NCBI GenBank assembly: GCA_028695415.1
Contig: JAQVIY010000003.1
Span: 14,271 to 47,131 of the forward strand
DNA from: Minisyncoccota bacterium
GTDB taxonomy: Bacteria > Patescibacteriota > Minisyncoccia > Phycocordibacterales > Phycocordibacteraceae
Reading direction: 5' to 3'
DNA length: 32,861 nucleotides
The notes under the pieces are model-generated. The model did no database searches, was not told the DNA's origin, and worked only from the letters and a program-made list of their open reading frames with translations. Of the stretch, positions 6,510-31,465 are shown piece by piece. Within the stretch, counting starts at the first letter, position 1, and the number at the start of each line of letters is the position of its first letter. A program made the translations under genes and the position numbers.

Positions 6510-6827
6510 AGCGGGGTAGAGGAGAGGTACCTCGGGAGGCTCATGTGAATAACGTGACCCTATCCGGTAACGGGTAGTGGAAAAACTCTCTAAATTGCTG
6601 GAACACCGTGAGAGCTTCTTATGCTACAGCGTGATCCGAAAGGATGGGCGCGAATGCTTGAAAAATAAGAAGATTCGGCAATCAGCAGCCAAGTCTCCCG
6701 CCTTAGGGGGAAAGGTTCAGAGACTATAATGGGAGAATCCCTATGGGATTGTGGTATAGTCCATTCCTGCTGGAAACTGCAGGTGTAAAAGAACCTCCAG
6801 ACGCCGGTTCGATTCCGGCCCCCGCAA
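6510..6827 (+). tRNA. tRNA-Met(CAT), probably initiator fMet, interrupted by a group I intron
   Basis: Exons aGCGGGGTAGAGGAGAGGTACCTCGGGAGGCTCAT + AACCTCCAGACGCCGGTTCGATTCCGGCCCCCGCAA fold as a cloverleaf: anticodon stem GGAGG/CCTCC, loop CTCATAA, T arm GCCGG-TTCGATT-CCGGC. No Watson-Crick pair 1-72 (A.A), as in initiator tRNAs. Confidence 0.88.
6545..6791 (+). ncRNA. Group I intron in tRNA-Met(CAT), 247 nt
   Basis: 5' exon ends in T, intron ends in G. Core-like AATCAGCAGCCAAG, P7-like GACTATA/TATAGTC, P8-like GAATCCC/GGGATT, P9-like CCTGC/GCAGG. Confidence 0.88.
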
Positions 6828-6909
6828 CACGGTTGTGAGCTAGTGTCAAGTACCGGCGCCCATCAGAAATCTCTGAAATCTGGTACGGTACCGACAAGCA
6901 TCTGGCTCC

Positions 6910-6957
6910 GAAACAAACACGAAAGCCGCTCTTTCGAGCGGCTTTCGTGTTTGTTTC
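6910..6957 (+). terminator. Terminator-like perfect 21-bp hairpin
   Basis: GAAACAAACACGAAAGCCGCT-ctttcg-AGCGGCTTTCGTGTTTGTTTC. Confidence 0.85.
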
Positions 6958-6976
6958 AAGATATACTAGGGCAATC

Positions 6977-7546
6977 ATGACCACTGTTCATATTATTCAC
7001 GGATGTCCTTCGGACGAAGAGCGCGCAATGAATCCTGCGACGCGTACCTATGACAAGCACTGGATGCCGTGGTTAAAGGAGCAACTAACTGCGTGTGGAG
7101 TAAAAGTGAACGCACCACTTATGCCGAATCCATGGGCACCCGATTACGCTGCATTCAAAGCGGAGTTTGAAAAAACTCTAGTGTCAGAAGACGATGTTTT
7201 GATCGGTCACAGCTGTGGCGGCGCTTTCCTCGTACGCTGGCTTGGCGATTCGAAGCAGAAAGTTCGCAAGCTTATCCTTGTAGCGCCGTGGAAGATTCCA
7301 GACGCAGGAGACAAGAAGCGCGAGGAATATTACGGATACGAAATAGACAGGACAATTCCCGAACGCGTTGGCGAAATAGTGACCTTTACGTCAGATGACG
7401 AAGAGGAAGACGGAAAGAAGAGTGTAAAGATATTTCATGAGGCTCTAGGCGGAAGGGTAATAGAACTTTCACACCACGGACACTTTACGTTCGGCGATAT
7501 GGGTACCGAGGAGTTTCCAGAGTTGTTAGCGGAAATTCTCAAATGA
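6977..7546 (+). CDS. RBBP9/YdeN-like alpha/beta serine hydrolase
   Basis: VHIIHGCPSDE start, nucleophile elbow IGHSCGGAF, C-terminal HHGHFTFGD. Confidence 0.8.
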   Translation: MTTVHIIHGCPSDEERAMNPATRTYDKHWMPWLKEQLTACGVKVNAPLMPNPWAPDYAAFKAEFEKTLVSEDDVLIGHSCGGAFLVRWLGDSKQKVRKLILVAPWKIPDAGDKKREEYYGYEIDRTIPERVGEIVTFTSDDEEEDGKKSVKIFHEALGGRVIELSHHGHFTFGDMGTEEFPELLAEILK

Positions 7547-7551
7547 CGAGG

Positions 7552-7618
7552 GCAAGAATCGAACTGAAGCAGAAATAAGCAACGACGGGGACAGGAAATG
7601 GCAACCGAGGATCTAGGC
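7552..7618 (-). repeat. 67-nt imperfect repeat, copy 1 (minus strand carries a T-arm-like GTTCGATTC)
   Basis: About 55/67 identical by eye to 8883-8949. Confidence 0.85.
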
Positions 7619-7626
7619 GACGAAAT

Positions 7627-7664
7627 GACCGGTTCGTCTATGGCCCCCCGCAACACGGTTGTGA
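7627..7664 (+). repeat. Degenerate copy of the tRNA-Met(CAT) 3' end plus downstream flank
   Basis: ccGGTTCGtctatGGCCCCCCGCAACACGGTTGTGA versus ccGGTTCGattccGGCCCCCGCAACACGGTTGTGA at about 6805-6838. Confidence 0.85.
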
Positions 7665-7756
7665 CGCCAGCATTGCCCGTCCGTAGCCCTAGGCGAAGGA
7701 GGGGAACCAGTACCGACAGGGTTCAAACCCAGTACGGTACCGGCCCGGGTGTTCAC

Positions 7757-7792
7757 CAGAAAAAGCCAGCAATACGTTGCTGGTTTTTTCTG
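7757..7792 (+). terminator. Intrinsic terminator
   Basis: CAGAAAAAGCCAGCAA-tacg-TTGCTGGTTTTTTCTG, 16-bp stem with one G.U pair. Confidence 0.85.
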
Positions 7793-7815
7793 TTATGTAG
7801 CATTTACAACATATA

Positions 7816-7913
7816 GCCAGTTCGATTCCGGCTCTCGTATTCGGCATGCTTTCGTGTTGCAGTCACACTCGAAACGATCCGATTTCGAGCAGGGGCGCGG
7901 GAATCGAACTGGC
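7816..7913. repeat. 98-nt element with 14-bp T-arm-like terminal inverted repeats and an internal inverted repeat
   Basis: GCCAGTTCGATTCC (7816-7829) / GGAATCGAACTGGC (7900-7913); internal CTCGAAA-cgatccga-TTTCGAG (7868-7889). Confidence 0.85.
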
Positions 7914-7980
7914 GAAAGATAGTGAACACGTCGGTTCTTGAATTCGTGTTCCCTCATGGGTGTTGGAAATCATTGCTGAA

Positions 7981-8014
7981 TTTAAAAAAGACGGGACACC
8001 CGAAGATGTCCCGT
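7981..8014 (-). terminator. Intrinsic terminator of the minus-strand gene 8033-8806
   Basis: ACGGGACA/TGTCCCGT stem followed on the minus strand by CTTTTTTAAA. Confidence 0.85.
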
Positions 8015-8032
8015 TGATTGGGTTTGCTTGAA

Positions 8033-8806
8033 TCACTCGCCGAACAAAGCAAGGGCTTTGATGAGGTACTCCTCCGCCATATCCCAGTCGATCGGATCGA
8101 GTGCACTGCCGCTCGGGCGCAGTTTCCCTTGAGCATCGATGCTCAGGTCAGGAAACTCCATGACAAGCGGTTCGACGAGGTTGATGCTCTGCGGCCCGAG
8201 TCCGCCTGCGGCGACCAAGTCGAGACCGGGAAACCGTTCTCGGATCGCGTGAGCGAAGGGCAGGAGTGCCGCGGCATCCATACCAAGGCCTCGACCCATG
8301 CTTCTGTCGAGCAGGACACGATGAATGACGCCTTCGTAATCCTCAAGCCTCCGGACGACCTCATCGGGATCGTCGCCAACCTCTTCGATCGCGTTCTTGC
8401 CGACCTGGAGGATGACCTCGATGTTCCTGCGAGAGGTGTGGATACCGTGTGCCACTTGTCCCGGATCGGGCCAGGGCATGTCGAGCTGCACCGCGTTGAT
8501 GCCAATGCCGCCATAGGAGATGGCGCGCGAGAGGCTGTCCCAGAGATTCGGGGTGTGGTCGTAGTCCGCGTAGTGGAGGCAGTTGAAGGTTTCGTCAGAA
8601 CCGAAGATGCTGGCGATGGTCTCCTTGGGAGGGAAGGCTTTTGCCCACTTCGTTTCGATGCCGTTGAGCGTCTTGTAACTCATCATGACGCCGACATGGA
8701 GCCTTCGGTCGGACCCAGGTTGCTTATGGGCGCTGAACGCCGTGAGCATCCGGGCGACCTGTTCGAATGACATAAAGTCGGTGATGCCTATGTACGGAAA
8801 GAGCAT
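8033..8806 (-). CDS. Probable TIM-barrel protein, possibly phosphoribosylanthranilate isomerase-like
   Basis: 257-aa ORF with strong SD (AAGGAGGATTCACCATG); internal pattern VAAGGLGPQSINLVEPLVMEFPDLSIDAQGKLR resembles the TrpF C-terminal barrel. Family call tentative. Confidence 0.6.
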   Translation of the reverse strand: MLFPYIGITDFMSFEQVARMLTAFSAHKQPGSDRRLHVGVMMSYKTLNGIETKWAKAFPPKETIASIFGSDETFNCLHYADYDHTPNLWDSLSRAISYGGIGINAVQLDMPWPDPGQVAHGIHTSRRNIEVILQVGKNAIEEVGDDPDEVVRRLEDYEGVIHRVLLDRSMGRGLGMDAAALLPFAHAIRERFPGLDLVAAGGLGPQSINLVEPLVMEFPDLSIDAQGKLRPSGSALDPIDWDMAEEYLIKALALFGE

Positions 8807-8882
8807 GGTGAATCCTCCTTGCTTGATTGAGTTTCGGAATCTAGGGTGACAATACTTGTGCTTGAAGGCGGAGTCAACGGGC

Positions 8883-8949
8883 GCAAGAATCGAACCGAAT
8901 CAGGAATAAGCAACGACGGAAGTAAGAAATGGCAATTGAGGATGTAAGC
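8883..8949 (-). repeat. 67-nt imperfect repeat, copy 2
   Basis: GCAAGAATCGAACCGAATCAGGAATAAGCAACGACGG... matches 7552-7618. Confidence 0.85.
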
Positions 8950-9015
8950 CGTATTTCATTCCTGTGAACAAACTTGTCCCAAAATCCAAGACGTGTATAA
9001 TAAAGGTCTAACCTC

Positions 9016-9043
9016 ACCACCTCTGTCCTCGGGCAGGGGTGGT
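9016..9043. terminator. Possible weak terminator hairpin
   Basis: ACCACCTCTG-tcctcggg-CAGGGGTGGT followed by TTGTTTA. Confidence 0.45.
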
Positions 9044-9065
9044 TTGTTTATGGGCGGGAGATAGA

Positions 9066-9090
9066 ATGAGCAAGGGTAACCCTTGCTCAT
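9066..9090. repeat. 25-nt palindrome
   Basis: ATGAGCAAGGGTAACCCTTGCTCAT; reverse complement differs only at the central base. Confidence 0.9.
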
Positions 9091-9148
9091 GATAGGCTCA
9101 ATAGAGCGAAAAGTGCCCGGAAACCCCGAATGGTGGTATACTCCCCTC

Positions 9149-9385
9149 ATGAGGGGGCCCGATCTAGATAAGGAGCGCAGCGAAGAGAAGCATTCTCTCG
9201 CGGATTTCGTGAAGTTTTATAATGCTGGTTTGCCGGCGGGGTTCCCGCGTGCTACTGCCGCGCTTCTTACTGAATATCGCAGCAAGAACAAAGACCAATT
9301 CAAAGGCGGTTTCTGGTCCCTCGATCTCCACCGCAAGAAGTTCATGGATTGGTTGCCTGGCCACCTGAAATCGCTCAAGGCATAA
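9149..9385 (+). CDS. Small hypothetical protein
   Basis: ORF MRGPDLDKERSEEKHSLADFVKFYNAGLPAGFPRATAALL...; alternative start 9083 lies in the palindrome. Confidence 0.55.
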   Translation: MRGPDLDKERSEEKHSLADFVKFYNAGLPAGFPRATAALLTEYRSKNKDQFKGGFWSLDLHRKKFMDWLPGHLKSLKA

Positions 9386-9416
9386 AAAGGCTTGCGGGCG
9401 CGCGGCGATGCTGATA

Positions 9417-9435
9417 TACTTAGAGTATCTAAGTA
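9417..9435. promoter_or_regulatory. Probable MarR-type operator overlapping the -10 of the efflux operon
   Basis: TACTTAGA-gta-TCTAAGTA, 8-bp perfect arms, overlaps TATACT (9415-9420), 10 bp upstream of ATG 9446. Confidence 0.7.
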
Positions 9436-9445
9436 ATTCATAGCT

Positions 9446-10726
9446 ATGCACGAACGAATCAGTGCCGTGTCGAACCATCTTTCAAAGCCCGTCGTCGCTC
9501 TTGGCGGCGCGGGCCTTATCGCTCTCGCCGCCATAGGCATCGCCTGGCAGGCGAGTGCGGTCACTCCCTCGGGGCAGTACGCCGCTGCGACCTTCGCTCC
9601 GATCACGGCTGTCGGCGGCGCGAGTTCCGACCTGTCATTCCAGATATCGGGACAGACGGTGAGTATTCCCGTGGTGATAGGGCAGAAGGTTTCTTCAGGC
9701 ACGACGCTGGTCGTGCTCGACCAATCGGCGCTTCTTGCGGGACGCGCGGGAGCGGTCGCGAATCTTGAGGCGGCACAGGCGCGGCTCGCAGCGCTCAAGG
9801 CGGGCACGCGCCCTGAACAGCTCGCTATCAATCAAACGACGGCAACTCAGGCCGAAGAGTCACTTCGAGATGCCGTGAGAAGCGCGTATATCGGTGCGGA
9901 TGACGCTATTCATAATAAAGCTGATCAATTTTTCACCGATCCGCGCACATCCTCAGCGGCGTTCTCTTTCACAGTTTCCGACAAAACACTTCAAAATACG
10001 GTCGAGACGGGGCGTGTCTCACTCGAGCCGATCTTGAGTGCGTGGAGCGCGCAGGTCAATAGTCCCGCATTTGCGACCAGCGACCCTCTCGCGGATGCAA
10101 AGCTCGCTCAGGCTAATCTCATACAAATCTCAGCATTCCTTGATACGGTTGCGTCAGCGCTCGCGAGAACTCCATCATCTTCTGCAGTACCTGCCGCGAC
10201 TCTTCAGGGGTATCAAACCACCATCAATACCGTACGCTTGAGCATCTCTAACTCCCTCAGTGCTATCACCGGTTCGGTAACGGCTCTCCAGAATGCGCAG
10301 GGTGCACTCGTGCTCGCACAGGTCGGTCCCACGGCACACGACATTGCGGCGGCACAGGCGGCGGTCGACGCTGCACAGGCGGCACTCCGCGGTATCGATG
10401 TCTCTCTGCGGCAGTCAGTACTGAGCGCACCGATCGCAGGCACTATTACCGCGCTCAATGTACACCTTGGTCAAACGGTTACTCCCGGACAGATCATCAT
10501 CTCGATAGAATCTTCCGGCGGAAGCTCGGACCGCGCGCTCGTCGTGCCCGCCAGCAGCATCATCAGAGATGGTGACCAGGTATTCGTGCTCGCACGAAGC
10601 GCTACTGGCTCTCCGGTCAAGACGATCGTCAGCGCTGGTCTTGTCGGCGATGACGGCATGACCGAGATCGTCTCCGGCTTGAACGAGGGGGATGAGGTTC
10701 TTACTTTTGGCTCAGCTGCAAAATAA
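9446..10726 (+). CDS. HlyD-family membrane fusion/adaptor protein
   Basis: N-terminal TM, lipoyl-like SIPVVIGQKVSSGTTLVVLD, long Ala-rich coiled coil, second lipoyl half APIAGTITALNVHLGQTVTPGQIIISI. Confidence 0.8.
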   Translation: MHERISAVSNHLSKPVVALGGAGLIALAAIGIAWQASAVTPSGQYAAATFAPITAVGGASSDLSFQISGQTVSIPVVIGQKVSSGTTLVVLDQSALLAGRAGAVANLEAAQARLAALKAGTRPEQLAINQTTATQAEESLRDAVRSAYIGADDAIHNKADQFFTDPRTSSAAFSFTVSDKTLQNTVETGRVSLEPILSAWSAQVNSPAFATSDPLADAKLAQANLIQISAFLDTVASALARTPSSSAVPAATLQGYQTTINTVRLSISNSLSAITGSVTALQNAQGALVLAQVGPTAHDIAAAQAAVDAAQAALRGIDVSLRQSVLSAPIAGTITALNVHLGQTVTPGQIIISIESSGGSSDRALVVPASSIIRDGDQVFVLARSATGSPVKTIVSAGLVGDDGMTEIVSGLNEGDEVLTFGSAAK

Positions 10727-10727
10727 T

Positions 10728-11345
10728 ATGACTTCTTCCCGAAAACGTCTCATCATCGTCATCTCCGGTGCGCTCTGTATCATTGCGGCCGGTGTAACCG
10801 CTGCATTCTTTATCACGGCGAACGGTCGTGTGGCGGTTGATACCGCAAGCATACAGGCGCCGCTTATCGGCCTCACTTCGACCGTGCCGGGGCGTCTTGA
10901 TGCGATATATGTGCACACGGGTGACACGGTCGCCGCGAACCAGCCGGTAGCCTCGGTCGGGACACAGGTCATAACGAGCAAGGTCGCCGGGCTCATCGTA
11001 TCGGTCAGCGATACGGTCGGTGCTCCGGTCGGTGCAGGGACGCCGATCGTTACGATGATCGACCCGACACAGTTGCGTGTCGTCGGGCGCATTGACGAGA
11101 CCAAGGGGCTCGCCGAGATACGCGTCGGCAACCCGGTCACCTTTACGGTCGATGCGTTCGGCGGTAAGGAGTTCACCGGCGTCATTGATGAAATAGCGCC
11201 GACCTCTAATCAGTCGGGTATCGTGTTCAATATCTCGAGTCAGCGGCAGATCCAGCAGTTCGATATCAAGGCGCGCTATGACACGAGTGCGTATCCGGAA
11301 CTGAAGAACGGCATGTCCGCTCGTTTGTGGGTGCGCACGAACTAA
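10728..11345 (+). CDS. Short HlyD/EmrA-like adaptor protein
   Basis: N-terminal TM, VPGRLDAIYVHTGDTVAANQPVASV lipoyl-like domain, beta-barrel LRVVGRIDETKGLAEIRVGNPVTFTVDAF. Confidence 0.75.
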   Translation: MTSSRKRLIIVISGALCIIAAGVTAAFFITANGRVAVDTASIQAPLIGLTSTVPGRLDAIYVHTGDTVAANQPVASVGTQVITSKVAGLIVSVSDTVGAPVGAGTPIVTMIDPTQLRVVGRIDETKGLAEIRVGNPVTFTVDAFGGKEFTGVIDEIAPTSNQSGIVFNISSQRQIQQFDIKARYDTSAYPELKNGMSARLWVRTN

Positions 11346-11352
11346 GAACGCA

Positions 11353-12879
11353 ATGAAGGGAGCACCTGAAACAAGAGCGGCTCATCGGCTCACTGGTCAT
11401 CCGTGGCTTGTTCTCGCGACGGTGATGGTGGGGACACTCCTCATCGGTCTCGATCGTACCGTCGTGAATCTTGCGATGCCGAAGATTATGGGTGATTTCG
11501 GCATCTCGGTCTCTACCGCCGCGTGGATCGCGACCGCCTACATCATCAGCAACGCCATTTTCGTGCCGGTGTTCGGCAAGCTTGGCGACCTCTACGGCAA
11601 CCGTATCATTTATCTCTGGAGCTTCATCGGCTTCATTATCGTCTCGGTGCTCGCCGGCCTCTCGTGGGATTTCAATTCGCTCGTCTTCTTCCGCGTGATC
11701 CAAGGGCTCGTCGGTGCCGCGGTCTATCCGGCCGCGATGTCGCTCATCGCGAAGTCGTTTGCCGACCCAAAGGCGCGTGCGCAAGCGCTCGGCATCTGGT
11801 CGTCGTCGTTTGCGGTTTCTGCGGTCATCGGCCCCTTGCTCGGCGGCTATCTCGTTGATAACTTCGCGTGGCGCTCGGTCTTTTTTATAAATCTTCCTAT
11901 CGGCATCCTAGGTCTCGCGATGACACTTTTCTTCCTCCCTCACGACCGACCGGGAGAGAAAGGCACCTTCGACTGGTTCGGTGCGATACTCCTCTCCGTA
12001 GCTATCACGAGCCTCGTACTCGTCGTTGATCGCGGGCAGGATTGGGGCTGGCTTTCCGCGGCAAGCACCCTCTGTTATGTGCTGACACTTGTTTTTGGTA
12101 CACTCGTGTACCTCTGGGAGACGCGGCACACGCACCCCATCATTGATTTCAAACTGTTTAGCAATCCGGTCATCGTCTCAGTGCTCGCCGTCTCCTTTAT
12201 CTCATTCGGCGGGATGATGGGCGCGATGTTTCTCCTGCCGGTCTTCGCACAAACATTTCTTCACTATTCCGCGACGCAAAGCGGCTATCTGTTCGTGCCG
12301 ATGGCGCTTTCGCTGCCGATCTTCGCACCTCTTGGAGCGAAAGCGGCACAAGCCTTCAATCCCCGATATTCGGTCGCATTCGGAATGGCGCTCTCTGCGC
12401 TTGGACTCTTCTTACTCGTGAATCTCGACCCAGCGATGACCTCGGTTGATTTTATTTTGCCGCTCGTCCTCTTCGGCGCGGGGCTCGGGCTCGGCATGGC
12501 GCCGCTTACGAGCGCGGCGACGAACGCCGTCCCGCTGGGTGAGGTCGGTATGTCCTCGGGGCTTTTGAACCTCACCCGCAACATAGGCGGCGCATTCGGT
12601 ATCGCTATCTTCGGCACCATTCTCGCCAATACGACCGAAGCGAATGTGCTTATGGTCGCACAGAACTCGCACATCATCGGCTCGACGCCGCTTATTCGCG
12701 CCGAGGCGGCTGAGCTTATCATCTTGAAGGCGGATATTCTCGCCTACAGCACGGTCTTCGTATACGCAGCGGGCGCGATGCTTCTCGGAGCACTGGTCGC
12801 TTTCTTTTTCTTGCGCACGACATCAAGCAAGGAGAGAGATATACCCGCAGAAGTGCTCGCCGAGGCTGCAGCAGGTTGA
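11353..12879 (+). CDS. MFS drug efflux transporter, DHA2 (EmrB/QacA) family
   Basis: LLIGLDRTVVNLAMPKIMGDFGISVSTAAWIATAYIISNAIFVPVFGKLGDLYGNR; about 14 hydrophobic segments. Confidence 0.92.
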   Translation: MKGAPETRAAHRLTGHPWLVLATVMVGTLLIGLDRTVVNLAMPKIMGDFGISVSTAAWIATAYIISNAIFVPVFGKLGDLYGNRIIYLWSFIGFIIVSVLAGLSWDFNSLVFFRVIQGLVGAAVYPAAMSLIAKSFADPKARAQALGIWSSSFAVSAVIGPLLGGYLVDNFAWRSVFFINLPIGILGLAMTLFFLPHDRPGEKGTFDWFGAILLSVAITSLVLVVDRGQDWGWLSAASTLCYVLTLVFGTLVYLWETRHTHPIIDFKLFSNPVIVSVLAVSFISFGGMMGAMFLLPVFAQTFLHYSATQSGYLFVPMALSLPIFAPLGAKAAQAFNPRYSVAFGMALSALGLFLLVNLDPAMTSVDFILPLVLFGAGLGLGMAPLTSAATNAVPLGEVGMSSGLLNLTRNIGGAFGIAIFGTILANTTEANVLMVAQNSHIIGSTPLIRAEAAELIILKADILAYSTVFVYAAGAMLLGALVAFFFLRTTSSKERDIPAEVLAEAAAG

Positions 12880-12889
12880 TACTATATCT

Positions 12890-13348
12890 ATGACGAAACA
12901 CGCTGTTCACAAACATCAACATTCTCCTCGCGATATTGCGCGAGTGATAGCGCTGTTCTCCTCGGTGCGACGTACGATGCGCACCAGGCTCTTGCGCGGC
13001 AGGAAACTCGATCCCTCGACGTGGCTCCAGGTAGAGACGATGAAGTTTATCGCCGATACTGATGCGCCGAAGATGAAAGAGGTCGCTACGTATCTCTCTA
13101 TCACCGCACCGTCGGCGACAGCGCTCATCACCGAGCTTGTGAAGGGAGGGTTTGTCTCCTGTGCCGCTGACACAAACGATCGTCGCGCTTCGCGTCTCTC
13201 GCTTACTATGAAAGGGAAGACCGAGGTCAAAAAGGCTATCGCGCGCGGCAAAAAACTCCTCGAAGGTATGTTTTCCGGACTTTCGAAAACAGAACTCGAT
13301 GCGCTTATTCGCGCGCTCGAACAAATACAGAAGACTACCGAGAAATAG
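12890..13348 (+). CDS. MarR-family transcriptional regulator
   Basis: KEVATYLSITAPSATALITELVKGGFVSCAADTNDRRASRLSLTMKGK winged HTH and DxRRxxxLxLT wing. Confidence 0.9.
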   Translation: MTKHAVHKHQHSPRDIARVIALFSSVRRTMRTRLLRGRKLDPSTWLQVETMKFIADTDAPKMKEVATYLSITAPSATALITELVKGGFVSCAADTNDRRASRLSLTMKGKTEVKKAIARGKKLLEGMFSGLSKTELDALIRALEQIQKTTEK

Positions 13349-13350
13349 CG

Positions 13351-22869: not shown

Positions 22870-23787
22870 ATGAATCACTGGTTCTTATTGGCGACGATGG
22901 CTCCGCTCTTATGGGCGGCCTGCAACCACATCGACAAGATTCTCCTCGAGAAGTATTTCAAGGAGGGGGGTGTCGGTGCGGTGCTTATCGTTTCGGCGCT
23001 TGCATCGAGTCTTGCGATACCGTTCCTGTATCTCGCCAACCCGGCAGTTCTTGAAGTGGATTCAGGGAACTTCGACATCATCATCGTCACTGCGATACTC
23101 GATATTGTTGTTCTCTGGGCGTATTTGAACGCCGTCCAGAAGGACGACCCTTCGCGAGTCGTGGTCTACTATCAACTCCTTCCGGTGCTCGGCATCGGGA
23201 CAGGTTGGCTCTTCCTCGGGGAGACCATAACCGGTCACCAGTTGATTGCGATGGCAATCGTACTCCTCGGTACCACAATTCTTTCCTTCGATGAGGCAGG
23301 GGGGGTCGTGAGCTTCAAGTGGAGGACAGTCGGGTACATGCTTCTCGCGGTCTCTGCCTGGGCGATGGAGCTCGCGATATTCAAGGCCATAGCGATCGAA
23401 GAAGACCCGTGGCGAACACTCTTCTGGAAGCATGTGGTTCTGGTGACTCTGGGCGTTCTCATGTATGCCCTGATCTCCAAGTACCGCAAGAGCTTCCTTG
23501 CCGTCATGCGGGAGAACTCCACGGTTGCGCTCGGGCTAGCCGTCTCGAACGAAGTGTTGTACATGACCGGAACGATCTTGTATGGACTTGCGGCGATGTC
23601 TGCTCCGGTCGCGCTGGTGCTTCTCACGGAAACCTTCCAATCGGTCTTCGTGCTTATCATTGCGGTCGCTCTCGCTTGGTTCCTCCCGCAGTTCGCGACA
23701 GAGAATGTTGAGATACGGCATCTCGCGAGGAAAGCGGTCGCTATTGGTATTACGGGGCTCGGCACCTACCTCCTTCTCGTGGCCTGA
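22870..23787 (+). CDS. EamA/DMT-family transporter
   Basis: About 10 hydrophobic segments in two EamA-like halves; QLLPVLGIGTGWLFLGETITGHQLIAMAIVLLGTTIL. Confidence 0.85.
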   Translation: MNHWFLLATMAPLLWAACNHIDKILLEKYFKEGGVGAVLIVSALASSLAIPFLYLANPAVLEVDSGNFDIIIVTAILDIVVLWAYLNAVQKDDPSRVVVYYQLLPVLGIGTGWLFLGETITGHQLIAMAIVLLGTTILSFDEAGGVVSFKWRTVGYMLLAVSAWAMELAIFKAIAIEEDPWRTLFWKHVVLVTLGVLMYALISKYRKSFLAVMRENSTVALGLAVSNEVLYMTGTILYGLAAMSAPVALVLLTETFQSVFVLIIAVALAWFLPQFATENVEIRHLARKAVAIGITGLGTYLLLVA

Positions 23788-23899
23788 ATAAATAAGCTCA
23801 ATTTGCAACTTTGCACGGTCTCTCGCGGGGCCATGCTTTCTTTTTCCATCTTGGCAGTAGGCCAGAGCCTCTTATTTTTATGCTACCATTCCATCCTAT

Positions 23900-24778
23900 A
23901 TGAGCGTTTCGCGCGGGACTCATCAGAAGCCCTCCCTGTTCCATTCGGTCTCGAGGTCAGTTTCCTCTCTTTTCCACCGGAGGAGCGCGCGAGATGACGC
24001 CTCCGATATGACCCTCGCTCCGTTTGAAGCGATAGCAGAGCTCGAACGGCGGCAGAAAGATCCGGAAATAAAGAAAAAAGTGGAGAAATATTTAGCCGGA
24101 GACATCCCAGAGTATTTCAAAGACGGCCCAATCCTCTGTTTAGCGCGTCACATCATCACTCCCAACTTCGAGACTCTAAGGTTCGTACACTTGACGTGGC
24201 AGTTAGGGATGAAGCCCGTGATAACCCAAGATTCGAAAGGAATGTTCGTCCCGTTCAATCAGGTGAAGAAAGCGCTTTGTAAACTCCCCGTTTGTCGCCG
24301 GCTCTCGCAGAAAAAAGGAACATTGCATGAGCACTACGAGAACGTGACGATAGTCGATTTCAATAAGGCAGACGGCAAACCATTTTCAGAGATTGAGACG
24401 CTTTGGGGGGAGAAACTGACAGATTTTCATATGCGGTTATTTTCAGAATTTATAGACAAAGAGATTGATCTGCCGGACGATGCGGCGTGGATAGATCGGC
24501 ACCATCGCGATAATTTATTAGAACACTACAAGCATCTGCTCGCCCTTTTTGTCGCGCACGGCATCTTTTTTGAGAATTACGATATGAACGATCCGCACGA
24601 GGTCCACTTTGTGCGGCACATTCTGCGCCCCGCCTTCCGCTTCGTGGAGAAGAAGTTCGGCTATCGCCCGCTCATCGTGCAGGTATTCCCGACAAGCTTC
24701 GAGAGCACCCGCTTCTGGATCAGTTATCCAAAAAGAGTTCTCGATATTGTTCGAGAGAGCATGCACAAACAGGGTTGA
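23900..24778 (+). CDS. Hypothetical protein, 292 aa
   Basis: Long ORF, no recognised family; a later start near 24009 is possible. Confidence 0.7.
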   Translation: MSVSRGTHQKPSLFHSVSRSVSSLFHRRSARDDASDMTLAPFEAIAELERRQKDPEIKKKVEKYLAGDIPEYFKDGPILCLARHIITPNFETLRFVHLTWQLGMKPVITQDSKGMFVPFNQVKKALCKLPVCRRLSQKKGTLHEHYENVTIVDFNKADGKPFSEIETLWGEKLTDFHMRLFSEFIDKEIDLPDDAAWIDRHHRDNLLEHYKHLLALFVAHGIFFENYDMNDPHEVHFVRHILRPAFRFVEKKFGYRPLIVQVFPTSFESTRFWISYPKRVLDIVRESMHKQG

Positions 24779-24828
24779 TTGAGGGTGGTCTAATCGAGCC
24801 TCTGATATACTACGGATAATCACTTGCC

Positions 24829-25194
24829 ATGAGATTGAGTAACAACATCCTTGTCTCCATCCTTGTCCTGCTCATCGGATTCTGTTTGGGATATGCGTAT
24901 TTTCGGTTCATGATCGTCCGGGACTACATGGTTGCGTACGAGGGGGAGTGCGACCCTGCCGCGCAGAGCTGCTTTGTTGGGTGCGACGATAGTGCGTGTA
25001 CGAGCGAGTACTATTATGCCAAGGTGCAGAAATACGCGGTGCACCTGCAGGCCGAGTGTGGTCCCGACATAACTAACTGCGACGCGGCGAGTGTTTGCCT
25101 CCCCGAAGATGAGGGGAAGTGTCTTATTACATACTGTGATTCGGAGCTTGATGGGGTTACCTGTACAGAAACCGCAGCCCAAAGTACCCCATGA
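24829..25194 (+). CDS. Cys-rich single-TM hypothetical protein
   Basis: N-terminal TM then about 10 Cys; TATACT-like -10 upstream; stop overlaps next ATG (ATGA). Confidence 0.75.
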   Translation: MRLSNNILVSILVLLIGFCLGYAYFRFMIVRDYMVAYEGECDPAAQSCFVGCDDSACTSEYYYAKVQKYAVHLQAECGPDITNCDAASVCLPEDEGKCLITYCDSELDGVTCTETAAQSTP

Positions 25195-26834
25195 TCTGCA
25201 ACTTTTTCGTAGAACCATCCTATTTTCTATTCGCTCCCGATATACCGGGACTCCTCTACTATTCTCACATACCGACAGCTATAATCGCGCTCCTGGTCGG
25301 CGGGTTCGTCTTCCTAAAGGGTAGACAGTTCTTGCTGAATCGGCTCTTGCTCGTTATTGCCATCTGCTTCGCGCTCTGGACATTCACGAATCTAGTTCTG
25401 TGGACGAATATTCATAGTGATTTCTTGCTTTTTATATGGACCGGCTATGTCGTGCTCTTCAGTTTCATTTCAATATCTTCTGTCTACTTCGTGTATGTAT
25501 TCCTCGAAGGGAAGGACGTGTCGTTGTGGCTCAAGGGCGTTTTCCTCGCACTCCTTACGCCAGTTCTTGTTTTGGCTCCGACATATATAAATCTCGGCGG
25601 ATTCAATATAACAAGTTGCGATGCTTTCGAGTTCGAGGGTTTCGCGTACAAGTTTTACTATATTGCGCTTGCGGTGCTAGCGATGATTTGGATCCTCGTT
25701 CTTCTCATCAAGAAATACCGGGCGATCTCGGGCGATTTTCGTAAACAGATTGTGCTTATGGGAATCGGGATTGAGTTTTTCCTCTTCTCATTCTTTACGA
25801 TCACTTCTGTGGCGAGCTACCTCACGGACATCGGTGTTTTGTCTGACTCGAGACTCGAGTTTTACGGTCTCTTCGGGATGACCGTGTTCATGGTATTCAT
25901 CGGGATCCTCATGGTTCGATTCAAAATCTTCCATGTCGGCCTCATTGCCTCTCAGGCACTCGTTGTCGCGCTTGTCATTCTTGTAGGATCGCAATTCACG
26001 TATGTGAATACGACGACGGGTGTCATCCTTACCGCGGTAACCCTTTTGTTTACAGGACTCGTAGGCATCTTGTTGATGAAGAGCGCGAGGAAAGAGATTG
26101 AACAGCGCGAGAAGATAGAGAAGCTCGCGGGAGAGCTCGCGGCGACCAACGAGCGCCAGGAGACGCTGATCCACTTCATCGGGCACGAGGTCAAGGGATT
26201 CCTCACCAAGGCGGCGGGCTCCTTCGCCTCGCTCGCCGAGGGCGACTTCGCGCCCCTTCCCGAGGCGTTGAAGCCTTTTGTCGGGCAGGCGCTTGCCGAG
26301 ACGCGAGGCGGCGTCGACTCGGTGTCGAATATCCTGAAGGCTTCGAATCTGAAGAAAGGGACGGTGACCTACACTAAAGAGCCCTTCGATATGAAGGCGC
26401 TCGTGACAGAAGCGGTCGGTCGGGCGAAGCTGACCGCAGAGCAGAAGGGGCTTACGATACGTTTCGCTGCTGATGACGCCTCGTATCAGATGACCGGCGA
26501 TAAGGCACAAATCAATGATCACGTGCTGCGCAACCTTATCGACAACGCAATCAACTATACCCCCTCTGGTTCAATCGAGGTTTCGCTCAAGCGGCAAGGG
26601 ACGCGGATCATCTTCGCGGTCAAGGATTCGGGTGTCGGCATCACCGAAGAAGATAAGAAACGTCTCTTCACCGAGGGCGGTCATGGCGCGGATTCGCAGA
26701 AGATCAATGTGCACTCGACCGGCTACGGGCTCTATATCGCGAAGCAGATCGTCGAGGCGCACGGCGGCACCATCCGCGCCGAAAGCGAAGGAGCGGGGAA
26801 GGGCTCGACCTTTATCGTGGAGCTGCCAGTTTGA
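25191..26834 (+). CDS. Sensor histidine kinase with N-terminal 7TM-like region
   Basis: H-box LIHFIGHEVKGF, N-box HVLRNLIDNAINYTPSG, DSGVGITEEDKKRLF, STGYGLYIAKQIVEAHGG. Confidence 0.92.
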   Translation: MICNFFVEPSYFLFAPDIPGLLYYSHIPTAIIALLVGGFVFLKGRQFLLNRLLLVIAICFALWTFTNLVLWTNIHSDFLLFIWTGYVVLFSFISISSVYFVYVFLEGKDVSLWLKGVFLALLTPVLVLAPTYINLGGFNITSCDAFEFEGFAYKFYYIALAVLAMIWILVLLIKKYRAISGDFRKQIVLMGIGIEFFLFSFFTITSVASYLTDIGVLSDSRLEFYGLFGMTVFMVFIGILMVRFKIFHVGLIASQALVVALVILVGSQFTYVNTTTGVILTAVTLLFTGLVGILLMKSARKEIEQREKIEKLAGELAATNERQETLIHFIGHEVKGFLTKAAGSFASLAEGDFAPLPEALKPFVGQALAETRGGVDSVSNILKASNLKKGTVTYTKEPFDMKALVTEAVGRAKLTAEQKGLTIRFAADDASYQMTGDKAQINDHVLRNLIDNAINYTPSGSIEVSLKRQGTRIIFAVKDSGVGITEEDKKRLFTEGGHGADSQKINVHSTGYGLYIAKQIVEAHGGTIRAESEGAGKGSTFIVELPV

Positions 26835-26869
26835 GGTTGGGCTGATATATCCATCGTCGACTCCATAAC

Positions 26870-26898
26870 ACAAAACACGCCTCATCGGCGTGTTTTGT
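26870..26898. terminator. Bidirectional terminator hairpin between histidine kinase and tRNA-Asp
   Basis: ACAAAACACGCC-tcatc-GGCGTGTTTTGT. Confidence 0.8.
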
Positions 26899-26904
26899 TG
26901 ACTG

Positions 26905-27185
26905 CGCGAGGGACGGGACTCGAACCCGCAACCTTCCGCGTGCACGATATCCACTATTTTCATAATGGCGTGGACTATATCTTCACCATGGGTCGCCCTG
27001 TAGGTGCTCCGGTATCTAGTCTCTACGGCGCCCCCTCTCCGTATGAGAAGGGTTCCCTCGGTATTCGCATATCCCGCATTAGCGAGACTTAGCCTCCACC
27101 GATATCCCGGAGAGTTTCAATCCCGATTTCTCGGGAAAGCTGCACGTCTACAGGCGGATGCTCTAACCAGTTGAGCTACCCCCGC
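26905..27185 (-). tRNA. tRNA-Asp(GTC) interrupted by a group I intron
   Basis: Minus-strand exons GCGGGGGTAGCTCAACTGGTTAGAGCATCCGCCTGT + CACGCGGAAGGTTGCGGGTTCGAGTCCCGTCCCTCGCG: acceptor GCGGGGG/CCCTCGC, anticodon stem TCCGC/GCGGA, loop CTGTCAC. Confidence 0.92.
26943..27149 (-). ncRNA. Group I intron in tRNA-Asp(GTC), 207 nt
   Basis: 5' exon ends in T (U35), intron ends in G. P7-like GAGACTA / TATAGTC, terminal P9-like hairpin TCCAC...GTGGA. Confidence 0.9.
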
Positions 27186-27853
27186 AGTAATATGTACTTT
27201 TCGAACACTCTCTTCTTCCGTTCAAGAAACAAGCTTCCTATTGAGGAAGCAGGTTGATTATACATCAAATCATATAATTTCAAAGAATCGTTTACCGAGA
27301 GTTGCAGACGAGCATATCCCTGTTTCGCTTTATATATCGAACCGCCCTTAACATCACTTTTGGCGAGACGCAGATGCAGCCTCTCAAGAAACTCAAATGA
27401 GCACGAGGTAAACATCGTTATAATCGCTAGATTTGAAGCACCATTTCTTTTCTTTACACGACCAACCCATACATTTCCATCACCATCAAAATAACCCCGG
27501 ACAAAATGTGAGAAATACTTTTCGGGGACGTGCGGGATTGTCATACTTTTAGTTTTTCGCTCTTTCATTCCAAGATGGCGCAAGTCGTCGCACATCTCTT
27601 TACTGCCGATTTGGAGACGATAAATCGTGTTCTCGTTTCCAGAACGCTTCCGCACGCTTATTGCGTGTTCTGAACCGACTGCTTCTTTTATCGCCTCAAG
27701 AAGAAGTTTGTCGGTAATCTGGATGCACCAGAAATGAGCACTGCGCTTATTTAGAGTAATGTAGCCGTCCGCTGCGAAGAAACCGAGCACATACGCCATC
27801 TCGGGTGCCCATTTCTTGAAGAAGTCTTTGTTGACCCTCTTAAATACTGGCAT
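27176..27853 (-). CDS. LAGLIDADG homing endonuclease
   Basis: Two motifs: YVLGFFAADGYI and FVRGYFDGDGNV; 225 aa; last 10 nt overlap the tRNA-Asp 5' end. Confidence 0.92.
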   Translation of the reverse strand: MPVFKRVNKDFFKKWAPEMAYVLGFFAADGYITLNKRSAHFWCIQITDKLLLEAIKEAVGSEHAISVRKRSGNENTIYRLQIGSKEMCDDLRHLGMKERKTKSMTIPHVPEKYFSHFVRGYFDGDGNVWVGRVKKRNGASNLAIITMFTSCSFEFLERLHLRLAKSDVKGGSIYKAKQGYARLQLSVNDSLKLYDLMYNQPASSIGSLFLERKKRVFEKYILLRG

Positions 27854-27911
27854 TCACTCAGTATATCTCGTGACAGTGCAATATACTGACCTTGTCTACG
27901 TCTTATCTAAG

Positions 27912-27983
27912 TGCCGATGGGTGGAATCGGACCACCGTCTAGGGCTTATGAGTCCCTCGTTCTAACCATTGAACTACACCGGC
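27912..27983 (-). tRNA. tRNA-Met(CAT) elongator or tRNA-Ile2(CAT)
   Basis: GCCGGTGTAGTTCAATGGTTAGAACGAGGGACTCATAAGCCCTAGACGGTGGTCCGATTCCACCCATCGGCA; acceptor GCCGGTG/CATCGGC. Confidence 0.9.
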
Positions 27984-27992
27984 GAGTGAGGA

Positions 27993-28028
27993 AGTATGTG
28001 CATGAATGTCTGCATTCGTGCACATACT
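27993..28028. repeat. 16-bp hairpin upstream of tRNA-Met
   Basis: AGTATGTGCATGAATG-tctg-CATTCGTGCACATACT, one G.U pair. Confidence 0.85.
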
Positions 28029-28076
28029 CTCCGAGCGAGCCGTATGAAAGCCGACCGAAGGGAAGGCTTACACCCA

Positions 28077-28120
28077 GCGAGTGAGAACAAGAGCATTTAC
28101 ACTCGTGTGTTCACACTCGC
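28077..28120. repeat. Inverted repeat in the tRNA-Met/csoR intergenic region
   Basis: GCGAGTGAGAACA / TGTTCACACTCGC, 12 of 13 pairs. Confidence 0.75.
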
Positions 28121-28183
28121 AACAGTAACAAAATTGCCGCGCCGAGACAATGCGCTCCTTCAGTATCCACACCTTGCGCCCCG

Positions 28184-28200
28184 ATACCCCTAGGGGGTAT
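28184..28200. promoter_or_regulatory. CsoR operator
   Basis: ATACCCCTAGGGGGTAT just upstream of csoR; matches the established pseudo-palindromic G/C-tract CsoR operator form. Confidence 0.85.
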
Positions 28201-28211
28201 CATACGCGCAT

Positions 28212-28475
28212 ATGAAGATACCAAAAGCGAGATTAGTGAAGCGGCTGAAGATTGTCGAGGGGCAGGTGCGCGCTCTCCAGGGGATGCTCGAGAAGGACGC
28301 CTACTGCATCGATATCATCACGCAGACCTCGGCGGTGAAGCAGGCGCTCTCGAGTATCGAGGACGCGCTTATGGAGAGCCATCTGAGCACCTGCGTTGTT
28401 CATCAGATACAGAAAGGGAAGGAGAAGACAGCGATAGGTGAGATACTGAAGGTATATCAACTCAAGCGCAAATAA
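28212..28475 (+). CDS. csoR: CsoR-type copper-sensing repressor (DUF156)
   Basis: RLKIVEGQVRALQGMLEKDAYCIDIITQTSAVKQALSSIEDALMESHLSTCV; Cys-His-Cys ligand pattern. Confidence 0.92.
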   Translation: MKIPKARLVKRLKIVEGQVRALQGMLEKDAYCIDIITQTSAVKQALSSIEDALMESHLSTCVVHQIQKGKEKTAIGEILKVYQLKRK

Positions 28476-28476
28476 T

Positions 28477-28616
28477 ATGCCCAGTAGAACAACATGGCAT
28501 CGTGTCATTGCCGTTTGTAACGGAAGTAGTGTGATTACCAACGTGCATAACATGAGACAACGGCAGGCAATTCCCTCGGACACGCAGGGCAATGCCTTGT
28601 TGTTCTAACTGGGTAT
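28477..28616 (+). ncRNA. Long imperfect hairpin element spanning the whole csoR-transporter intergenic region (RNA element or MITE-like)
   Basis: ATGCCCAGTAGAACAACATGGCAT (28477-28500) pairs with 28592-28616 (22 WC + 1 G.U, one bulge, one mismatch); CGTGTC/GACACG (28501-28506/28579-28584) and TGCCGTTTGT/ACAACGGCA (28509-28518/28557-28565) continue the stem. Confidence 0.7.
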
Positions 28617-29655
28617 GATCCAAACGCAAACCTACCGGGTCCGGGGAATGCACTGCGCCTCCTGCGCGGGCGTCATCGAGAAGTCGCTCAAGAAGATTGA
28701 CGGTGTCGAAACCGTCGAGGTGAACATCGGCACCGAGAAGGCGAAAATCTCTTTTGATGAATCGAAGACAAACGCAGAACAGTTCTCAAAGGTCATCGCG
28801 CCGCTCGGGTATACCCTTGTCGTGTCGGAAGCCGCTCCCTCAGCCATCGCGATAGAGAAGCAGAGCGAAGAAAAGAAGTGGGCAGAGCTCGCGACCGCAG
28901 CGCCTATCGCGCTCGTGTTTATCGCACTTTTCGTCCTCCTTCAGAAGCTCGGCATCGTAAATCTCATCACCACAAGCGATGTTTCCTACGGAACCGCTTT
29001 TATGATCGGCATTGTCGCGTCGCTCTCGACCTGTATGGCGGTCGTAGGCGGGCTTGTGCTCTCGATGTCGGCGACCTTTGCGAAGGAGGGAGACAGGGTA
29101 CGGCCGCAGGTACTCTTCCATCTCGGGCGCCTCGTCTCGTTCTTCATTCTCGGCGGAGTCATCGGTGCGCTCGGCTCGGCGTTCACCCTCAATACGGTCG
29201 GCACATTCGTGTTAGGTCTTCTTGTCGCTGTCGTGATGCTTCTTCTCGGTATCAACCTCCTCGACCTCTTCCCTTGGGCGAAGCGATTCCAGCCGGCGAT
29301 GCCGAAGTTCCTTGCGCGGCACGCGCTTGGCGTCTCAGAGTTTACCCACTGGCTCACGCCGCTTCTCGTCGGTGTCGCGACCTTCTTCCTCCCATGCGGC
29401 TTCACCCAGGCAATGCAGCTCTATAGCCTCTCGACGGGCAGTTTCCTCTCGGGCGCGCTCACGATGTCATCGTTTGCTCTCGGCACGCTGCCAGTTTTGG
29501 CACTTATCGGCTTCAGCTCCTTTAGCGTCAAGAACAGCCCGAAGGCGGGCATCTTCTTCAAGACAGCGGGACTTATTGTTATCCTCTTTGCGATGTTCAA
29601 TCTTATCAATAGCTTGGTAGTCATCGGGCTCATATCGCCAGTCTTCAACTTCTAG
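28615..29655 (+). CDS. HMA domain fused to TauE/SafE (DsbD/UreH-like) membrane protein, probable copper handling
   Basis: N-terminal HMA motif GMHCASCAGVIEKSL; membrane domain with ASLSTCMAVVGGLVLSMSA and GVATFFLPCGFTQAMQLYSLSTGSFLSGALTM. Confidence 0.88.
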   Translation: MIQTQTYRVRGMHCASCAGVIEKSLKKIDGVETVEVNIGTEKAKISFDESKTNAEQFSKVIAPLGYTLVVSEAAPSAIAIEKQSEEKKWAELATAAPIALVFIALFVLLQKLGIVNLITTSDVSYGTAFMIGIVASLSTCMAVVGGLVLSMSATFAKEGDRVRPQVLFHLGRLVSFFILGGVIGALGSAFTLNTVGTFVLGLLVAVVMLLLGINLLDLFPWAKRFQPAMPKFLARHALGVSEFTHWLTPLLVGVATFFLPCGFTQAMQLYSLSTGSFLSGALTMSSFALGTLPVLALIGFSSFSVKNSPKAGIFFKTAGLIVILFAMFNLINSLVVIGLISPVFNF

Positions 29656-29670
29656 CAGTATTAAACCGAT

Positions 29671-30069
29671 ATGAAACCAATGCATCTCGCGCTCATCATT
29701 GCAGCCGCACTCATCGTCGGGGCAGTCTTCCTCACGACAAATAACGGAGGTGCGTCGGGTGCGCCACAAGCGCCTTCGGCTGATAATGTCAGTGTCGTGG
29801 ATGGTCAGCAGATCATCACTATTGACGCGAAGGGCGGTTATTCGCCGCGCGTAACGACGGCGAAGGCGGGTATCCCGACCATTATCCGTTTCCGTACGAG
29901 CGGCACGTTCGATTGTTCATCGTTCATCCGTATCCCCTCTATGGGTGTGAGTCGGAGCCTCCCATCGACTGGTACGACCGACATCGCGATTACGAATCCG
30001 CAGGCAGGACCCCTGCAAGGTATGTGCGGCATGGGGATGTACCCCTTCCAGGTGAACTTCGAGAACTGA
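29671..30069 (+). CDS. Cupredoxin-like secreted/anchored protein
   Basis: N-terminal TM/signal; GGYSPRVTTAKAGIPTIIRFRTSGTFDCSSFIRIP...GMCGMGMYPFQV, Cys/Met-rich cupredoxin-like pattern. Confidence 0.8.
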   Translation: MKPMHLALIIAAALIVGAVFLTTNNGGASGAPQAPSADNVSVVDGQQIITIDAKGGYSPRVTTAKAGIPTIIRFRTSGTFDCSSFIRIPSMGVSRSLPSTGTTDIAITNPQAGPLQGMCGMGMYPFQVNFEN

Positions 30070-30071
30070 GG

Positions 30072-30425
30072 TTAGGAGCGGCCGTACTTATCTTCGAGAC
30101 GCTCGATATCCTTTTCATCGAAATCGCCGAACGCTATCTCAAGAAAGGTCGTCCCGTTCGGGCCGCCGCTCACTCGGTGTTCCGTACCGCGCGGACAGAA
30201 GAACGAACCGCCTTCGTGCGCCTGGTGCTCGGTGCCGCCGATATGGATGATGCCCGAACCTTTGAGAACGTGCCAGAATTCGTCACGATGTTCGTGGGTC
30301 TGCAGACTGAAATATTCTCCGGCATTGACCGTGATTATCTTGACCGTCGTCTTCTCGTTGAGGGTGAAGCGTTCGAAGTTTCCCCACGGGCGGACTTCTT
30401 TCAGATAATTCGCAAGACCTTCCAT
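30072..30425 (-). CDS. Cupin, mannose-6-phosphate isomerase type II-like
   Basis: EVRPWGNFERFTLNEKTTVKIITVNAGEYFSLQTHEHRDEFWHVLKGSGIIHIGG...FFCPRGTEHRV. Confidence 0.88.
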   Translation of the reverse strand: MEGLANYLKEVRPWGNFERFTLNEKTTVKIITVNAGEYFSLQTHEHRDEFWHVLKGSGIIHIGGTEHQAHEGGSFFCPRGTEHRVSGGPNGTTFLEIAFGDFDEKDIERLEDKYGRS

Positions 30426-30508
30426 ATAGCGCTTAGTATAGCATCGCGTTTCTCTGTGCGGTTTCCTTTTTGCGAAAATGATGAAAGTCGGCTAGGATGC
30501 ACTGGAAC

Positions 30509-30583
30509 GAGTCGCCGCGATAAGCGTTGCTTGCACGCTTTCCTCGGCTCGTTCGACACGCGAAGAGTGAGTCGCCGCGATAA
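30509..30583 (+). repeat. Two exact 15-nt direct repeats 60 nt apart upstream of tRNA-Thr
   Basis: GAGTCGCCGCGATAA at 30509-30523 and 30569-30583. Confidence 0.9.
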
Positions 30584-30603
30584 AAGTGAATAGTGCGACA
30601 TTT

Positions 30604-30857
30604 GCCGAGATAGCTCAGTTGGTAGAGCAGCGCCATGGTGGGACGCAGTCCCTGCCCACTCTCCTGGTAACAGATGAGTGAATCCCGAATAACGGTCAAT
30701 AGCTCCACAAGCCAAGACCGTGGCGCGTAAGCGCCCGAACGACTGACAAGGGTACCCCTCGCGGGTAAAGATACAGTCTAGCCCTCTTTAGGTGGCGAAG
30801 AAGAAGAGGTGTAAGCGAAGGCGCAGGTCGTCGGTTCAATCCCGACTCTCGGCTCCA
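30604..30857 (+). tRNA. tRNA-Thr(GGT) interrupted by a group I intron, CCA encoded
   Basis: Exons GCCGAGATAGCTCAGTTGGTAGAGCAGCGCCATGGT + AAGGCGCAGGTCGTCGGTTCAATCCCGACTCTCGGCTCCA: acceptor GCCGAGA/TCTCGGC, anticodon stem GCGCC/GGCGC, loop ATGGTAA. Confidence 0.92.
30640..30817 (+). ncRNA. Group I intron in tRNA-Thr(GGT), 178 nt
   Basis: 5' exon ends in T (U36), intron ends in G. P7-like GACTG/CAGTC, P8-like TACCC/GGGTA, P9-like CCTCTT/AAGAGG. Confidence 0.88.
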
Positions 30858-30944
30858 GATTTGACGGCGTAAGATACGTAGGTATATTCAAAAAGGACCT
30901 GCTCGTTTTTGGCAGGCGCACCTTTGTCTTTCTGGAGAGAATCG

Positions 30945-31298
30945 ATGGAACACCATATATACTGGGTCGTTGCTGTAGGAGCTGTTTGTTTCGTTGGTTG
31001 CGGGGCTCTCTTGGCGCATGTGTACAAGTGTCGAGCGCGCACATACGCGCTTGAAAATGCGAAAGTGCTCAAGACGCGCCTCAAGAGACTCGAACAGCGG
31101 GCGAAGGTATCGTCGATTTGGAATAAGACAGAGATACTTTCGGACATCAAGGGTTTGAAGGCAAGGCTTGCCCTGTTTGATACCTTGGACGATGCGGAAA
31201 AACCGGTCAACTGGGTTGAAGAGCGGACGAGAATTGAAAGGATCGGCGTCGATACTCAGGCCGTTTATCGGCGCATACTCGACAATCAGCAGCGCTAA
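30945..31298 (+). CDS. Small membrane-anchored hypothetical protein
   Basis: GGAGA SD, N-terminal TM IYWVVAVGAVCFVGCGALLAHVY, then charged helix. Confidence 0.65.
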   Translation: MEHHIYWVVAVGAVCFVGCGALLAHVYKCRARTYALENAKVLKTRLKRLEQRAKVSSIWNKTEILSDIKGLKARLALFDTLDDAEKPVNWVEERTRIERIGVDTQAVYRRILDNQQR

Positions 31299-31317
31299 AG
31301 AAATAGGGACTGCATCA

Positions 31318-31353
31318 GGCCCTCGGAGAAAGTTCCGAGGGCCTTAGCTTTTT
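31318..31353 (+). terminator. Intrinsic terminator
   Basis: GGCCCTCGGA-gaaagt-TCCGAGGGCC then TTAGCTTTTT. Confidence 0.88.
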
Positions 31354-31392
31354 CGGGAAGAGTTTTTATGGTAGAAAGATAGGTACATATTT

Positions 31393-31465
31393 GCCGGGGT
31401 AGCTCAGTTGGTAGAGCGAGGGTATCGTAAACCCTAGGTCGTCGGTTCAATCCCGACCCCCGGCT
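31393..31465 (+). tRNA. tRNA-Thr(CGT), intronless
   Basis: GCCGGGGTAGCTCAGTTGGTAGAGCGAGGGTATCGTAAACCCTAGGTCGTCGGTTCAATCCCGACCCCCGGCT; anticodon stem AGGGT/ACCCT, loop ATCGTAA. Confidence 0.95.

Follow-up and report, generated by a model that had tools for sequence, protein, structure and literature searches.

How small group I introns that carry no open reading frame (ORF) come to interrupt tRNA genes, and what moves them, is the question raised by this 32,861-nucleotide stretch of DNA (the window), which derives from an ultra-small bacterium of the Minisyncoccota with a 728-kb genome assembled in 16 contigs at 96.8% completeness. ARAGORN, run with introns allowed, places five tRNA genes in the window, and three of them, those for initiator methionine (fMet), aspartate and threonine, are interrupted in the anticodon loop by ORF-less introns. 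In addition, a gene for a predicted LAGLIDADG homing endonuclease, absent from the initial annotation of this DNA and new here, overlaps the interrupted tRNA-Asp gene. The best overall explanation, and a reasonably probable one, is that the three introns have been gained and lost repeatedly and that the Asp intron is tied to the endonuclease. The features concerned are the following.

6510..6544, + strand: 5' exon of tRNA-fMet, initiator-like (A11-U24, nucleotide 1 unpaired); ARAGORN -i
6545..6791, + strand: group I intron of tRNA-fMet, 247 nt, site 36/37 (after anticodon nucleotide 36); RF00028 and covariation
6792..6826, + strand: 3' exon of tRNA-fMet; ARAGORN
27150..27185, - strand: 5' exon of tRNA-Asp(GTC); ARAGORN and intronless relatives
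26943..27149, - strand: group I intron of tRNA-Asp, 207 nt, between anticodon nucleotides 35 and 36 (CTGT|C); RF00028 and covariation
26905..26942, - strand: 3' exon of tRNA-Asp(GTC); ARAGORN and intronless relatives
27176..27853, - strand: free-standing gene for a predicted two-motif LAGLIDADG homing endonuclease, 225 aa; Pfam, AlphaFold and Foldseek
30604..30639, + strand: 5' exon of tRNA-Thr(GGT); ARAGORN
30640..30817, + strand: group I intron of tRNA-Thr(GGT), 178 nt, site 36/37 (after nucleotide 36); covariation, missed by Rfam
30818..30854, + strand (to 30857 with the encoded CCA): 3' exon of tRNA-Thr(GGT); ARAGORN
27911..27983, - strand: intact tRNA-Met(CAT), next upstream of the endonuclease gene; ARAGORN
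31393..31466, + strand: intact tRNA-Thr(CGT); tRNA scan

The three interruptions are almost certainly group I introns with these borders. An Rfam scan of the window matched the fMet intron to RF00028 above the threshold (66.5 bits) and the Asp intron below it (38.2 bits), and gave no match to the Thr intron. Gene alignments from 15 (fMet), 11 (Thr) and 6 (Asp) genomes were counted against explicit P1-P9 models in which P7 is a pseudoknot. For the fMet intron 97.8% of the cells at 49 pairs are paired, with 17 pairs changed on both sides; the corresponding values are 95.6%, 47 and 19 for the Thr intron and 97.3%, 57 and 20 for the Asp intron. None of 500 shuffles reached the observed values, and slid controls paired at 32-48%. 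The P3-P9 core, with its P7/P3 pseudoknot, is complete in all three introns; P7 is invariant and thus speaks neither for nor against the fold. The U at the 5' splice site is paired with a G in P1 in every row (14/14 fMet, 11/11 Thr, 6/6 Asp), each intron ends in G, and in the exons the pairing of the acceptor, anticodon and T stems is maintained across the intron, compensatory changes included. Uninterrupted tRNA-Asp genes occur in about 70 relatives, and uninterrupted fMet or Thr genes in many, their exons fused at exactly the predicted borders; intronless fMet orthologues align to nucleotides 1-35 and then 283-317 without a gap. Because relatives offer such exact empty sites and all three introns show covariation, chance is excluded. 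The lengths of 247, 207 and 178 nt and the group I identity proposed in the initial annotation are therefore right, the lengths to the base (by ARAGORN and by the empty sites); it had allowed that structure models might fail on two or more introns, and all three structures hold. An archaeal-type (bulge-helix-bulge) intron is ruled out by the group I core, the motif itself not having been scanned for. ARAGORN labels the third gene Arg(GCG) because its splice site can slide by 2 nt; Thr(GGT) is preferred because of the U at the 5' splice site and the terminal intron G, and because the gene is nearly identical to intact Thr(CGT).

Self-splicing is the likely behaviour of all three introns, and all three pre-tRNAs would need splicing to yield working initiator Met, Asp and Thr tRNAs. 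The assembly contains 46 tRNA genes (43 uninterrupted, matching RF00005 over threshold, and the three interrupted), and no second copy of tRNA-Asp, tRNA-Thr(GGT) or the initiator tRNA was found among them at this completeness, nor were the intact copies that the initial annotation had thought of. A scan of the genome for hidden interrupted tRNAs by way of canonical 5' halves returned known genes only. For the initiator tRNA, tRNA-Asp and tRNA-Thr(GGU), the introns would thus make the sole gene copies found dependent on splicing. This genome yielded no gene for tRNA-Asn(GTT), Gly(TCC) or Ala(GGC), perhaps owing to assembly gaps; an Ile(TAT) gene is present. That three of five tRNA genes are interrupted is true of the window, but the genome-wide figure is 3 of 46, the window holding a Met-Asp-Thr-Thr tRNA cluster that accounts for four of the five. 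An unusual tRNA maturation economy, also suggested earlier, found no evidence, close relatives doing without each of the introns.

The distribution of the introns is revealing of separate histories. Pairwise local alignments among the three score as shuffles do, except over a short P7 stretch, which bears out the earlier impression of a shared architecture with little common primary sequence. Of 106 genomes (species) of the family, at least 19 have the fMet intron, about 22 the Thr intron and 6 the Asp intron, and within the genus each intron holds to one site and one tRNA. On this sequence evidence the three are separate, unrelated lineages, each polymorphic for presence and absence inside a single genus. 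The fMet introns of three relatives (L061, L063, L064) measure 336-341 nt, the P6 region being longer by about 95 nt, and three others (L108, L110, L111) have a second, different intron at 33/34 of tRNA-fMet. Kin of the Asp intron, sought by a conserved core string in 380 genomes of Patescibacteria, numbered 13, lying in tRNA-Asp (3), tRNA-Asn (7) and tRNA-Tyr (3). With the exons read by hand, all 13 are inserted after CTGT, a stretch paired in P1, which suggests that this intron family uses the CUGU common to GUN anticodons. ARAGORN calls of Thr(TGT) in five genomes (L106, L107, L324, L326, L327) were re-read as tRNA-Asn(GTT) with the intron after CTGT; separately, tRNA-Asn introns of 517 and 542 nt in L331 and L334 seem by eye to hold an HNH-like reading frame. 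Because the nearest kin of the Asp intron occupy tRNA-Asn and tRNA-Tyr in other Patescibacteria, and because tRNA-fMet has a second intron at 33/34, repeated gain and loss fits these data. Of the alternatives first offered, repeated invasion or old families diversified with their tRNAs, the former thus agrees with separate, polymorphic lineages and the latter is less favoured.

The endonuclease gene offers a candidate agent for one of these lineages. Its stop codon, TAG, forms nucleotides 8-10 of tRNA-Asp, so that gene and tRNA overlap by 10 nt; this position is observed directly. The 225-aa protein matches the Pfam families LAGLIDADG_3 (1.2e-11) and LAGLIDADG_1 (3.9e-5), and contains the motifs LGFFAADG and VRGYFDGDG, whose acidic residues D29 and D125 are invariant in 31 rows. 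An AlphaFold model (pLDDT 91.9) has a meganuclease fold, for which the best Foldseek match is I-Tsp061I (2dch, E 4.5e-10), with I-AniI also matched. A PDB sequence search with the first profile gave no match, and a deeper profile together with the fold search did find PDB matches. Sequence and model thus point to a LAGLIDADG homing endonuclease, with DNA cleavage as its predicted activity. Among homologues the position is a recurrent one: at 47 of 51 family loci the stop falls between -90 and +24 nt relative to the start of a same-strand tRNA (Asp, Cys or Leu), and at 92 of 109 broader loci, 84 of them Asp, between -45 and +56 nt, the broader sets including some duplicates. In the broader sets -10 and -15 are the commonest offsets, and seven further loci adjoin interrupted tRNA-Asp genes missed by ARAGORN, bringing the tRNA-linked total to about 99 of 109. 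Named hosts are Yonath-, Vogel-, Nomura-, Taylor-, Zambryski-, Campbell-, Moran-, Wolfe-, Harrison-, Yanofsky- and Liptonbacteria. The present genome has another LAGLIDADG gene of this endonuclease family (C2:6969-7577, - strand), which ends 44 nt inside tRNA-Leu(CAG).

Intron and endonuclease gene are associated at tRNA-Asp, the intron in the family being nested, as directly observed, within the presence of the gene or its remnant. Among 92 tRNA-Asp genes, a near-complete set for the family, the intron is present in 6 of 19 with the endonuclease gene or a remnant of it and in none of 73 without (Fisher p 3.8e-5, a test that counts related genomes as independent). All three Asp introns in the 380-genome sample, the present genome included, have the gene directly upstream, as against none of the 10 Asp-type introns in tRNA-Asn or tRNA-Tyr. 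A tree of 93 Asp-linked endonucleases shows at least 19 switches between intron presence and absence. Moreover, the gene is broken in one intron-bearing genome (G083) and survives only as fragments in two others (G082 and G049), which is the pattern expected of a homing cycle.

A free-standing endonuclease adjoining a gene that bears an ORF-less intron is the arrangement of collaborative homing, and it is found at tRNA-Asp. The enzyme would most likely cut tRNA-Asp genes without the intron. In collaborative homing its cleavage site would coincide with the intron insertion site, a point on which the sequence associations bear indirectly. Repair from the donor would then convert the endonuclease gene, the 36-nt exon and the intron together, and the host's own tRNA-Asp gene would be shielded either by the intron or by an altered tRNA. 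That the endonuclease targets tRNA-Asp and moves the intron in this way is about an even proposition.

The tRNA-Asp genes themselves provide a further lead. A non-canonical D-arm occurs in 11 of 12 family genes with the endonuclease gene and no intron, compared with 21 of the 73 that lack the gene (p 5.4e-5; 4 of these 21 differ in nucleotide 7 alone), and in 1 of 6 with both gene and intron; the neighbouring tRNA-Met shows no such class difference. In the wider endonuclease-bearing set the D-arm is canonical in 13 of 30 genes with the intron and in 4 of 63 without (p 4.5e-5), and three of these four exceptions have T32. Fully canonical sites amount to 52 of 73 without the gene, 13 of 30 with gene and intron, and 1 of 63 with the gene and no intron, where 'fully canonical', like the D-arm features, was defined post hoc and the genes compared are related. 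The first comparison of tRNA-Asp classes drew on a set picked by similarity to the present gene; in the near-complete family set the effect is weaker and still there. Independent pairs on the endonuclease tree go in the same direction, with too few of them supported. A short D-loop type (AACGGTAGAGC) is seen with and without the intron, in L183 versus L202, whose spliced tRNAs are identical, so that tRNA deviance alone is not decisive. The D-arm association is thus a lead, not proof. It permits the tentative suggestion that the endonuclease holds an essential tRNA-Asp hostage and that carriers survive by one of two routes: the target would be split by the intron within the anticodon loop, or the enzyme would fail to recognise a tRNA-Asp gene altered in the D-arm (a bulged TTAGTAGC, for example) or by T32.

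Several observations weigh against linking intron movement to the endonuclease. Besides the relatedness of the genomes compared, the intron is absent from 63 of 93 endonuclease-bearing tRNA-Asp genes, so the endonuclease gene evidently persists without it, and paralogous endonucleases adjoin Leu, Cys and Phe tRNAs in which no intron was seen. The last two facts are what would be expected if the endonuclease were an independent selfish element at tRNA 5' ends, spreading by intronless homing like phage T4 SegB (not known to us to be fused to the 5' end of one tRNA), with the Asp intron there by coincidence. Such a coincidence is possible but rather improbable, since no family tRNA-Asp gene lacking the endonuclease gene or a remnant has the intron (0/73) and all three Asp introns in the phylum sample have the gene. 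Nor would such a homing partner account for the movement of the fMet and Thr introns, since no LAGLIDADG gene was found within 1.5 kb of either.

If instead the protein were mainly a maturase aiding the splicing of the Asp intron, a role in keeping with its predicted fold, which resembles I-AniI and the bI3 maturase, most copies would not be expected beside intronless tRNA-Asp genes, nor would three genomes that have the intron be expected to carry a broken or fragmentary gene; such a gene is also lacking for the fMet and Thr introns, and this role is very unlikely. Old, vertically inherited introns made patchy mostly by loss would agree with the confinement of each intron to one site and tRNA in the genus. 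This is nevertheless an unlikely history, given how often the Asp intron changes state on the endonuclease tree (gains and losses counted jointly) and the presence of its family in tRNA-Asn and tRNA-Tyr as well. That the interrupted genes are pseudogenes or products of misassembly, intact copies lying elsewhere, is barely conceivable: the assembly is incomplete and fragmented and tRNA-Asn is likewise missing from it, but the same genes are interrupted in many independent genomes, and full tRNA pairing is retained by the exons, including compensatory changes on the two sides of the intron. Repeated gain and loss, with the Asp intron linked to its endonuclease, is thus the explanation retained.

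Other intron-like elements and repeats were noticed. On contig C2 of this genome (L036), a group I-like intron core lies in the 3' portion of the 23S rRNA gene (L036:1580-1850). It seems to hold, on the end of a long hairpin (fold z -8.2), a complete tRNA-like gene (L036:1693-1769) whose anticodon loop has 8 nt (CUUUCAAA); no match was found in the other 105 family genomes. Further group I-like introns with LAGLIDADG frames appear in or near the 23S and 16S rRNA genes (L036:2140-2950 and L036:16496-17273), and a 102-nt tRNA-like match (39.9 bits) with an oversized anticodon arm lies just past the 5S rRNA gene (L036:3618-3722). In the window, repeated pieces similar to the 3' end of tRNA-fMet and the flank downstream of it lie at 6803-6838 and 7546-7926, with an exact 20-nt copy at 7645-7664; they were perhaps left by an element that integrated at the 3' end of the tRNA.

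If carriers do survive by these two routes, homing endonucleases would drive the spread of introns as well as the evolution of tRNA sequences. Should the two-way immunity exist, bacterial chromosomes would offer a case of a group I intron serving as an antidote. The linked endonuclease suggests that tRNA gene sequences across the Paceibacteria are shaped by selfish endonucleases, and it gives the question of how tRNA introns without ORFs move in bacteria an answer that can be tested. No report of a LAGLIDADG gene fused to tRNA 5' ends together with a linked tRNA intron was found in the literature searched, a scope that leaves out preprints and most subscription journals.

Known bacterial tRNA group I introns are small and ORF-less, lie in the anticodon loop, and have a U at the 5' splice site and a terminal G. 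The present introns resemble those of Azoarcus tRNA-Ile and Anabaena tRNA-Leu (review PMC3984707) in all of these respects, but occupy other tRNAs, and the Asp intron has a linked endonuclease next door. In Patescibacteria such introns have already been reported (Nakagawa et al. 2025, preprint 10.1101/2025.07.03.662931, cited in PMC12641178) and are mentioned in PMC8172020; the preprint concerns the same phylum and gene class, and its title names a novel tRNA insertion site, perhaps 35/36. I-Ssp6803I of a cyanobacterial tRNA-fMet intron, as cited in PMC3984707 (Bonocora and Shub 2001), aims at the tRNA anticodon region, as the present enzyme is predicted to do; it is intron-encoded, whereas the enzyme described here is of the LAGLIDADG type and lies outside the intron. 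LAGLIDADG enzymes of rRNA introns in the same phylum, such as I-ShaI (PMC11270868, which does not mention tRNA), are single-motif dimers inside their introns, in contrast to the two-motif protein outside the intron here. T4 SegB, as cited in PMC3984707, is likewise a free-standing homing endonuclease tied to tRNA genes and the inheritance of a tRNA region, but belongs to a phage and has no intron, whereas the present gene is bacterial and linked to the Asp intron. Collaborative and intronless homing are both known from phages (PMC3984707); the arrangement described here, known from sequence alone, would place collaborative homing in a bacterial chromosome and at a tRNA gene.

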